Made by a program: the position numbers and the translations under genes
From: Candidatus Flemingiibacterium merdigallinarum
GTDB lineage: Bacteria > Bacillota > Clostridia > Oscillospirales > CAG-272
Length of the DNA: 35,132 nt
Direction: 5' to 3'
Assembly (NCBI GenBank): GCA_904386005.1
Contig: CAJFKR010000020.1
Location: 1-35,132, forward strand
Shown: one piece after another, positions 2,673 to 25,369 of the stretch
How positions within the stretch are numbered: the first letter of the stretch is position 1
How the letters are laid out: each line of letters begins with the position of its first letter
The notes under the pieces: model-generated
The model's database searches: none
Told to the model about the DNA's origin: nothing
What the model saw: only the letters and a program-made list of their open reading frames with translations

Positions 2673-3044
2673 TCAGCCTTTGTCAACCCCGATGAGTCGT
2701 TTTATCGCCTCGAATGATTCGTCGCTGATGTCATGCTCAATTTTGCAGGCGTCGGCAGCCGCGGTCTCACGGCTGACTCCGATTCTCACCAACAGGTCGG
2801 TCAAAATAGTATGACGCTCGTATATCTTGACGGCGATGCTCTCGCCCTCGTCGGTCAGCTTGATATAGCCCTCCGGGTCGACGGTGATATACCCGCCGTT
2901 CTTCAGAAGTCCTACTGCCCGGCTCACACTCGGCTTCGAATAGCCCATATATTCACAAATGTCGATCGAACGCACGCTGCGGTTCTCATTTGACAGTATA
3001 TATATGGTTTCGAGATACATCTCACCTGATTCCAACAAATGCAC
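2673..3044 (-). CDS. DtxR/MntR-family metal-dependent repressor with an iron-type metal site
   Basis: This 123-residue winged-helix protein consists of an N-terminal HTH (about residues 22-60; recognition helix around SKPSVSRAV) and the dimerisation/metal domain; it has no C-terminal SH3 domain, as in short Firmicute members. The primary metal site can be read directly: Met9, Cys100, Glu103 and His104 (CKIEH), plus His78. In DtxR/IdeR the ligands are Met10, Cys102, Glu105 and His106, whereas B. subtilis MntR uses Asp8, Glu99, Glu102 and His103. The site is therefore iron-type. The ancillary-site equivalents of DtxR Glu83 and His98 appear to be Thr82 and Ala96. The start is GTG, seven bases after GGAGGG. 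The feoAB operator 22 kb away is a plausible target; its own promoter carries a different palindrome. Confidence 0.88.
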   Translation of the reverse strand: MHLLESGEMYLETIYILSNENRSVRSIDICEYMGYSKPSVSRAVGLLKNGGYITVDPEGYIKLTDEGESIAVKIYERHTILTDLLVRIGVSRETAAADACKIEHDISDESFEAIKRLIGVDKG

Positions 3045-23025: not shown

Positions 23026-25068
23026 TTAAAACAACGAGATAATATTGTATACCACCGCCGACATTACCCACGCGGTGCCAAGCTGCATTGCCACCGCGCC
23101 GAGCGTGAACCTGACCGAGCCGCTCTCGCGCTTTATCGTCGCTATCGTCGCGACGCACGGTATGTAGAGCAGTACGAATATCATCATCGCGTAAGCGTTG
23201 GCTGCTGTGAATCCGACCTCGCCGAGCGCTCCCGACAGCGCGGTCATACCCTCCGCCGACGAGATGTTGCCGATTCCGTACAGCACCGACATACTCGATA
23301 CGACGACCTCCTTTGCCGCGATACCCGAGATGAGCGCGACAATTATCTGCCAGTAGCCGAGTCCGGTCGGGGTCATTACCGGTACGAGGAATTTCGCGAT
23401 AGACGCCGCGAAGCTCTCGGACATATCGCTGACGAGTCCGGACATGCCGAAGTTTAAGAGGAACCAAAGCACAATCGACGCCAAGAATATCGTCGTTCCG
23501 GCTTTTGTCAGGTAGTCCTTGATTTTGTCCCAGACATAGATGAAAATCGTGTGCGCGTTCGGCGTTTTGTATTCGGGCAGCTCGATAAGCAGAGTGTGCG
23601 TTTCGTATTTCTTTGTCAGCTTCGAGACAATCAGCGCGACGACGATCGCCATGACCAGACCGATCACATACATCGAAAACGCCGCGATTCCGGCGAAACT
23701 GCCGAAGAACATCTGCGACAGCAGCAGATACACCGGCAGCCTTGCCGAGCAGGACATGAACGGTGTCACGAAGATCGTTTTCAGCCGGTCGCGCTTGTCC
23801 TCGAGCGCGCGCGACGCCATAACCGCCGGCACCGTGCAGCCAAAGCCGAGCAGCATCGGTATGAACGCGCGTCCCGACAAGCCGATTTTGCCCATCAGTC
23901 CGTCCATCACATACGCGACGCGCGACATATAGCCGCTGTCCTCGAGTATCGCCAGCGCGAAGAACAGGATCACGATATTCGGCAGGAAGGTGAGGATTCC
24001 ACCGACTCCGGCGATAATGCCGTCGACCACCAGCCCGCTTATCAGCTCGCCGGCGTTGACAGCCTCGAACAAGCCGCGCACCGCGTCCGAAAAGACCTCG
24101 AGCGCGATTTCGAAATAGCCCTTAAGCCAATCGCCGACCGTGAAGGTCAACGTGAACACCACCGCCATGATAACGAGGAACACCGGTATGCCGAGGACAG
24201 GATGTGTCAGCAGCCGGTCAATCTTGTCGGTCTTGGCGCTCTTTTCCTCCTTGTTGACGAGCACCTCGGCGATGACTTCTTCGATGAAGTCGTATTTTTC
24301 GTTGATCATTATGCTCTCGCAGCCGTCGGGCAGCTCGCAGTCAATCGGATACTGCTTAATAATCTCGGTGTCGTTCTCGAGATATTTAATCGCGTGCCAG
24401 CGCGGATTCTCGAGCTTCGGGTATTTCTTTGCGAGCGCGCTGCCAAGCTCGGCGATTTTTTCCTCAATCGGGTCGGAGTAGACAAGCGCGTATTCGCGGT
24501 GCAGCTCCTCGTTCGTCCCGACCTTGTGGTGGTGCTCGATGCGGTGGCGCGCCGACATATCCTTGTGGTGCAGCACCGCGTGCATCAGCGCTTCAAGTCC
24601 GGTCTTCTTGCGCGCGCTGACCGGAATCACCGGTATGCCGAGCACCTCCTGCATACGGTGCAGGTCGATTTCCATGCCGCGCTCCTCGACTATATCCATC
24701 ATGTTGAGAGCCATTACCACCGGCTTGTCCAGCTCGACAAGCTGCATAGTCAGGTACATATTCCGCTCGAGCGCCGACGCGTCGGCGACGTCGACAATCA
24801 CGTCGACCTCGTCCGAGAGTATGCACATTCGCGAGACGCGCTCCTCCATTGTGTATGAGGTGAGCGAGTAGATACCCGGCAGGTCGATGAGACTGAATTC
24901 CTCGCCGCGGAATTTGTAGCTGCCCTCTTTTTTCTCGACCGTCACGCCGGGCCAGTTCGCGACCTTCAGATTCGCGCCGGTATACGCGTTGAAGAGCGTA
25001 GTCTTGCCGCAGTTCGGATTTCCGATAAAAGCGACGCGCAATGCCTTGTGATTTGTACTGTTTTCCAT
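23026..25068 (-). CDS. feoB: Ferrous-iron transporter FeoB
   Basis: The 680-residue inner-membrane Fe(II) importer has an N-terminal G domain: G1 GNPNCGKTT at 16-24, G2/switch NWPGVTVE, G3 DLPGIYSL, G4 NMMD, and a G5-like SARKK. A helical NFeoB-C region follows, then the membrane part beginning with FLVIMAVVFTLTF. It contains the FeoB Gate/C repeats with conserved Cys in FGCTVPAVMASRAL and in FVTPFMSCSARLPVY. The ORF track begins at 25119, but those residues overlap feoA. The true ATG at 25068 overlaps the feoA end by one codon and uses the GGAGG inside feoA, so the pair is translationally coupled. No feoC is seen. Transcription is controlled by the palindromes upstream of feoA. Confidence 0.97.
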   Translation of the reverse strand: MENSTNHKALRVAFIGNPNCGKTTLFNAYTGANLKVANWPGVTVEKKEGSYKFRGEEFSLIDLPGIYSLTSYTMEERVSRMCILSDEVDVIVDVADASALERNMYLTMQLVELDKPVVMALNMMDIVEERGMEIDLHRMQEVLGIPVIPVSARKKTGLEALMHAVLHHKDMSARHRIEHHHKVGTNEELHREYALVYSDPIEEKIAELGSALAKKYPKLENPRWHAIKYLENDTEIIKQYPIDCELPDGCESIMINEKYDFIEEVIAEVLVNKEEKSAKTDKIDRLLTHPVLGIPVFLVIMAVVFTLTFTVGDWLKGYFEIALEVFSDAVRGLFEAVNAGELISGLVVDGIIAGVGGILTFLPNIVILFFALAILEDSGYMSRVAYVMDGLMGKIGLSGRAFIPMLLGFGCTVPAVMASRALEDKRDRLKTIFVTPFMSCSARLPVYLLLSQMFFGSFAGIAAFSMYVIGLVMAIVVALIVSKLTKKYETHTLLIELPEYKTPNAHTIFIYVWDKIKDYLTKAGTTIFLASIVLWFLLNFGMSGLVSDMSESFAASIAKFLVPVMTPTGLGYWQIIVALISGIAAKEVVVSSMSVLYGIGNISSAEGMTALSGALGEVGFTAANAYAMMIFVLLYIPCVATIATIKRESGSVRFTLGAVAMQLGTAWVMSAVVYNIISLF

Positions 25069-25069
25069 A

Positions 25070-25291
25070 TCAGTCCTCCGACACCTCGATACCTTCGGCG
25101 ATTTCGCGCCCAAAAGCAAACCTTGTGCCGCGCACCTTTACTATAACCGCGCCGCTTTTCTTTTTGTTTAACAGCTGTACCGGCGTCTTTTGTGTGAGTC
25201 CGAGCATTTCAAGCCGTCTTGCGGTGTCGTCCCTCAGCTTTATGCACGAAATTTTGCACTTTCCGCCGATCTTAATATCGCGTAATGTCAT
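25070..25291 (-). CDS. feoA: FeoA, SH3-like ferrous-iron transport protein
   Basis: This is a small FeoA domain (73 residues from the ATG at 25291): MTLRDIKIGGKCKISCIK..., ARRLEMLGLTQKTPVQLLNKKKSGAVIVKVRGTRFAFGREIAEGIEV. The GLTxGTxVxL-like turn and the RGxRxAxGRE end define the family. AGGATGG lies five bases before this ATG; the ORF-track ATG at 25300 has a poorer ribosome site. It regulates or assists the FeoB channel at the membrane. First gene of feoAB. Confidence 0.94.
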   Translation of the reverse strand: MTLRDIKIGGKCKISCIKLRDDTARRLEMLGLTQKTPVQLLNKKKSGAVIVKVRGTRFAFGREIAEGIEVSED

Positions 25292-25311
25292 AAAAACCAT
25301 CCTGAATTGAT

Positions 25312-25369
25312 GTTAGCTCAAGCTAACCTTTATCAATGTTAGTATAAACTAACTCGGACGATTTGTCAA
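25312..25369 (-). promoter_or_regulatory. feoAB promoter with two palindromic metal-repressor operators
   Basis: On the minus strand TTGACA (25364-25369)-N17-TATACT (25341-25346). Palindrome GTTAGT-ATAA-ACTAAC (25338-25353) contains the whole -10 box. Palindrome GTTAGCT-CA-AGCTAAC (25312-25327) lies just after the predicted start, about +8 to +23, and 26 bases centre-to-centre from the first. The TTAG/CTAA half-sites are those of DtxR/IdeR-type boxes (TTAGG..CCTAA). Confidence 0.85.

Follow-up and report, generated by a model that had tools for sequence, protein, structure and literature searches.

The window analysed here, the whole stretch of 35,132 nucleotides from Candidatus Flemingiibacterium merdigallinarum, carries a feoA-feoB gene pair preceded by two palindromes and, about 22 kb from the pair, a gene coding for a DtxR-family protein. 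The relevant features are the following:

2673 to 3044, minus strand: two-domain DtxR-family repressor, 123 aa (PF01325, E 3.1e-11; PF02742, E 2e-14), proposed to act in trans
23026 to 25068, minus strand: feoB (PF02421, PF07670, PF07664, PF17910)
25070 to 25300, minus strand: feoA, 76 aa (PF04023, E 6e-15)
25312 to 25327, no strand: putative operator 2, palindrome GTTAGCTCAAGCTAAC, 13 bp downstream of the -10 box, of a pattern also found before iron genes genome-wide
25338 to 25353, no strand: putative operator 1, palindrome GTTAGTATAAACTAAC, an exact match to GTTAGYNNNNRCTAAC which encloses the full -10 box
25341 to 25346, minus strand: predicted -10 box TATACT, 17 bp from the -35 box
25364 to 25369, minus strand: predicted -35 box TTGACA of the feoAB promoter

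Both feo genes described in the earlier note are real, as judged from the matches to PF04023 and PF02421. The open frame of feoB extends to 25119 (TTG), and its start is likely the ATG at 25068, directly after feoA. For feoA, the true start may be an internal ATG at 25291, endowed with a better-placed Shine-Dalgarno sequence.

Promoter and palindromes upstream of feoAB

The putative feoAB promoter, recognized by its match to the consensus (11 of 12 positions), reads TTGACA-17-TATACT on the minus strand. The two palindromes are found where the earlier note had placed them, with their centres 26 bp apart, and TATACT falls wholly within the one at 25338-25353, again as claimed. The other is indeed located downstream of the -10 box, at a distance of 13 bp rather than the about 15 originally given. 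In both palindromes the outer arms pair and the centre is asymmetric. GTTAGYNNNNRCTAAC is matched exactly twice in the window, while the count over 100 dinucleotide shuffles is 0.00. The layout with the -10 box inside the palindrome recurs in a genome of the same genus (G097).

Base frequencies around 113 sites outline a single unit, TTAGY-N4-RCTAA, with no second overlapping unit. The sites do not therefore conform to the 19-bp TTAGGTTAGSCTAACCTAA box bound by two dimers, and the putative operator corresponds, in its sequence, to the single-dimer half of an IdeR box (PMC10317159). Its placement relative to the promoter varies: in several relatives (e.g. L104, L110, L216, L243) the palindrome takes up precisely the 17 bp that separate TTGACA from TATAAT, while in others it begins about 8-9 bp after the -10 box. 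Within the family, 18 of 32 close site pairs are exactly 34 bp apart; pairs with this spacing are found at the feo promoters of relatives, for example L147, L178, L202, L232 and L238.

Distribution of the sites in the genome and in the family

The genome (3.49 Mb in 153 contigs, 94% complete) was scanned for sites, and 12 exact GTTAGYNNNNRCTAAC matches were obtained, compared to none for the reversed pattern used as a control. The earlier note had proposed, as a check, that the sites should cluster at iron genes; this is what was observed, all 12 being intergenic and upstream of iron or iron-linked genes or operons, at six loci:

Locus 1, the window: feoAB; two sites
Locus 2, contig C11: feoA-feoA-feoB-DtxR-like-HMA, beside a FecCD/SBP ABC transporter; five sites
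Locus 3, contig C80: methyltransferase-flavodoxin-flavodoxin-FecCD ABC-SBP; one site
Locus 4, contig C73: FeoB-associated Cys-rich protein, 58 aa (PF12669); two sites
Locus 5, contig C19: ABC ATPase/FtsX pair (exporter); one exact site and one with one mismatch
Locus 6, contig C19: serine O-acetyltransferase; one site

Most of the sites in this genome begin shortly after the near-consensus -10 box of a TTGACA-17/18-TATAAT-like promoter. The link to iron of the LolD/FtsX-type ABC exporter and of the serine O-acetyltransferase, both preceded by sites (L018:8921-13189, G000:C19), is unexplained. Sites with one mismatch on C36 and C69, located at immunity/HTH, glycosidase and YidC-type genes, were taken as chance occurrences. 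No site was found upstream of a third feoAB-like pair (L025, G000:C47:14957-18412), which may be devoted to another metal or depend on another regulator. At locus 2, a short direct repeat, agctatagatttctggtc, occurs in two copies in the region that separates feoA from feoB, amid three of the putative operators (L017:7836-7872, G000:C11). Neither a Fur-family match, sought in this one genome, nor a Nramp manganese transporter (mntH) was found in it.

Over 119 genomes of the family, 307 exact sites were counted, versus 40 for the reversed pattern, and 104 genomes contain sites. Orthologues of the window DtxR protein are present in 114 of the 119, mostly one per genome. Of the orthologues, 102 are distinct and come with flanking DNA, and on these linkage to feo was evaluated: feo genes are found within 1.5 kb in 28 cases, and 31 have a feo operon and/or sites just upstream, a count which includes three orthologues truncated by contig ends. 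When this linkage is mapped onto the orthologue tree, 6 changes are forced by well-supported forks and 16 by parsimony; the linkage is thus scattered over the tree, and was not inherited from one ancestor only.

Linkage was also evaluated on a second sample, partly overlapping the first, of 80 named metagenome-assembled genomes, mostly from the gut and labelled as Clostridia, Oscillospiraceae or Ruminococcus. The orthologue is divergent from feo in 35 of the 80, and the shared intergenic region contains a site (at most one mismatch) in all 35; an exact site is found at only one of the 45 orthologues not adjoining feo. The sites therefore accompany feo, often with the regulator gene next to them. 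Sites were also sought upstream of the regulator gene itself, and were found neither in the window nor in most of the relatives in which it is not linked to feo, so that the regulator does not generally control its own gene through these sites.

The DtxR-family protein and its recognition helix

The gene at 2673-3044 is real, and carries Met9, Cys100, Glu103 and His104 as the earlier note had reported. Both PF01325 and PF02742 scores exceed the curated cut-offs, as expected of the DtxR/MntR family, whose members join a winged helix at the N-terminus to a dimerisation domain that binds metal, and the best relatives in the PDB are IdeR and MntR. A second PF02742 protein was searched for in the genome, and only this one was found. 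The four residues align with Met10/Cys102/Glu105/His106 of the iron-type DtxR/IdeR primary site, and Met9 and Cys100 stand in place of Asp8 and Glu99 of MntR. Among the 102 orthologues, Cys100, Glu103, His104 and Glu12 are present in all, His78 in 101 and Met9 in 89; Asp or Asn at position 9 is confined to a subgroup of 13 genomes.

In IdeR, bases are contacted by Ser37, Pro39, Thr40 and Gln43, the latter doing so at position 1 of the CCTAA repeat (PMC10317159; PMC8464063). These residues align with Ser36, Pro38, Ser39 and Arg42 of the window protein. The relationship between residue 42 and the operator was evaluated by using the unbiased pattern GTTAGN6CTAAC, and counting half-sites according to the base at position 6, which matches the position of this contact. 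In genomes with Arg42 (n=13) there are 81 C and 9 T; in those with Val or Ile42 (n=13), 36 T and 20 C. In the window's own genome, with Arg42, 17 half-sites carry C and 7 carry T. Fisher's test gives p-values of 7e-12 for half-sites and 1e-4 per genome, both overstated, as the Val/Ile42 genomes (G017, G031, G033, G034, G036, G042, G043, G044, G087, G088, G092, G093, G101) form one clade. Few independent events are therefore represented, possibly one or two. The AT fraction of the central N4 shifts less, from 0.58 in Arg42 genomes to 0.73 in Val/Ile42 genomes, so that base composition accounts for only part of the covariation. The number of sites per genome differs weakly with residue 42, the informative measure being the base at position 6. 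The Q43A mutant of IdeR retains full affinity (PMC8464063), hence contact by residue 42 need not be decisive in every member of the family. In these same 13 Val/Ile42 proteins, Met9 is replaced by Asn or Asp, a change suggestive of an altered choice of metal.

Proposed control of feoAB and relation to known systems

The palindromes are very probably operators of the DtxR protein encoded at 2673-3044, which would control feoAB in trans. Support for this proposal, already put forward in the earlier note, comes from the lack of Fur, from the occurrence of orthologues in 114 of 119 genomes, from the linkage data (35/35 versus 1/45) and from the covariation of helix and operator. What speaks against it is that the regulator gene carries no such site upstream in this genome and stands 22 kb from feoAB. 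Binding itself, repression and the Fe2+ signal we infer as follows. The metal-loaded repressor, most likely with Fe2+ at Met9/Cys100/Glu103/His104, would bind TTAGY-N4-RCTAA with one dimer per palindrome; the -10 box and the transcription start would be occupied by the bound dimers, and RNA polymerase thereby excluded from feoAB. Upon a fall in iron, the dimers would be released, allowing expression of feoAB. Repression through these sites would extend, in a genome without Fur, to a larger iron regulon including the second feoAAB, the flavodoxin/FecCD ABC operon, the FeoB-associated Cys-rich protein and others.

Fe2+ is the likely signal, on the basis of the type of ligands and of the content of the putative regulon. 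Flavodoxin, FecCD ABC and FeoB-associated genes are typical of iron limitation, and this content, together with the absence of Nramp, favours iron. The same repressor and operators could respond in the cell to Mn2+, or to both Mn2+ and Fe2+, and the window feoAB may then carry Mn2+; this is unlikely, given the regulon, the lack of a Nramp manganese transporter and a primary site with Met and Cys, as in DtxR, rather than the Asp and Glu of MntR. What speaks for manganese is the likeness to MntR, seen in the 123-aa two-domain build, in Glu12 and His78, which resemble the second MntR metal site, and in the NCBIfam search, where MntR gives the top score, though below its cut-off. Moreover, both metals are handled by PgMntR and by T. 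denticola TroR (PMC4805248, PMC2628430), and some Firmicutes FeoBs cluster with the manganese FeoB2 of P. gingivalis (PMC8749426).

The statement of the earlier note that no other metal repressor is present holds within the window; elsewhere, the genome contains a second, diverged DtxR-like gene without the metal ligands:

C11:4771-5199 (L017:4771-5199), minus strand: paralogue B, 142 aa, located after the second feoB; its N-terminal domain is of DtxR type

The predicted fold of paralogue B (mean pLDDT 81) is of the MntR/DtxR type, with MntR as the top PDB match (E 2e-5). It has other residues in place of Met9, Glu103 and His104 and at helix positions 41-42, while SKPSV of the recognition helix is retained. 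Its placement in the tree is unreliable, the branch being very long. Homologues of B directly follow feoB in G021, G028 and G072 (L202:7676-8029, L203:3798-4151, L204:3963-4349). The slot just downstream of feoB is that of feoC in enterics, and paralogue B may act as a competitor blind to metal, as a component akin to FeoC or in some other way.

The main rival to a picture with one repressor is that paralogue B binds these sites, with or against the window DtxR protein. The five sites in its own operon, the fold, the retained SKPSV motif and a GTTAGY site immediately before the start of the homologues in G021 and G028 speak in its favour; it is nonetheless improbable, as homologues closer to B than to the window protein occur in few of the sampled genomes (G021, G028, G072), compared to sites in 104 of 119, as ligands and helix residues 41-42 are altered, and as linkage and covariation point to proteins of the window type. 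Use of the palindromes by another kind of regulator, such as a Fur-family protein missing from an assembly which is 94% complete and split into 153 contigs, is very improbable, considering that the genome has zero Fur-family matches, that the sites fit a DtxR/IdeR half-site rather than a Fur box, and that feo-linked DtxR orthologues are always accompanied by sites. Chance palindromes devoid of a regulatory role can be practically dismissed: although the reversed control reaches about 13% of the site count family-wide, shuffles and the reversed control in this genome give zero, placement at promoters is precise, with palindromes that fit the -35/-10 spacer exactly in a number of relatives, and over half of the close pairs share the 34-bp spacing.

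Taken as a whole, this is a conventional case with good support, in which a DtxR-type repressor, probably sensing iron, would act on feoAB through half-site operators in a genome without Fur, and apparently takes over the role that Fur usually has in iron uptake. In an incomplete search of the literature, no report of DtxR control of feoAB in this group was found. A probable regulator, its putative operator and a testable regulon become available for a large family of uncultured gut Clostridia, a group whose iron control is for the most part unassigned, and in this family the pattern GTTAGYNNNNRCTAAC marks iron genes. The sites also offer natural examples of single-dimer half-sites, a question raised in the IdeR literature (PMC10317159), and the covariation lends itself to a test in which a single residue and a single base pair are exchanged. 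A broader picture, rather doubtful as a whole, would have this family of gut Clostridia control iron without Fur, by a two-domain iron-type DtxR acting on half-sites; one clade would have undergone three joint switches, from Arg42 to Val/Ile, from Met9 to Asn/Asp and from C to T at the matching operator base, and, in some members of the family, the metal-blind paralogue after feoB would provide a second input on the same operators.

Among known systems, IdeR/DtxR of Actinobacteria, which act on the TTAGGTTAGSCTAACCTAA box, share with the window protein the Met/Cys/Glu/His primary site and a helix with Ser-x-Pro-(Thr/Ser)-Val, and their operators likewise overlap the -10 box or the start site. 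The window protein differs in that, with its 123 aa, it stops past the dimerisation domain and lacks the C-terminal SH3-like domain; only the first residue of the DtxR ancillary site His79/Glu83/His98 is kept (His78), Glu83 and His98 being replaced by Thr82 and Ala96, and Gln43 becomes Arg42. Position 1 of the repeat is here G or A, not C, and the sites are single-dimer units, often in tandem 24-35 bp apart, in contrast to the interleaved 19-bp IdeR box. MntR of B. subtilis and E. coli is similarly a short two-domain protein with the second-site Glu and His, but has Asp8/Glu99 where Met9/Cys100 are found here, and the present regulon concerns iron uptake in a genome without mntH. PgMntR of P. 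gingivalis and TroR of T. denticola, found in anaerobes, are also repressors of the DtxR family, and their metal sites are mixed or of the Fe/Mn type (PMC4805248, PMC2628430); the former differs by Asp19 and twin FeoA domains, the latter by an SH3-like domain and by its target, troABCD. In other bacteria, Fur-controlled feoAB provides a similarly iron-repressed promoter, governed by a regulator of a different protein family, for which this genome has no gene.
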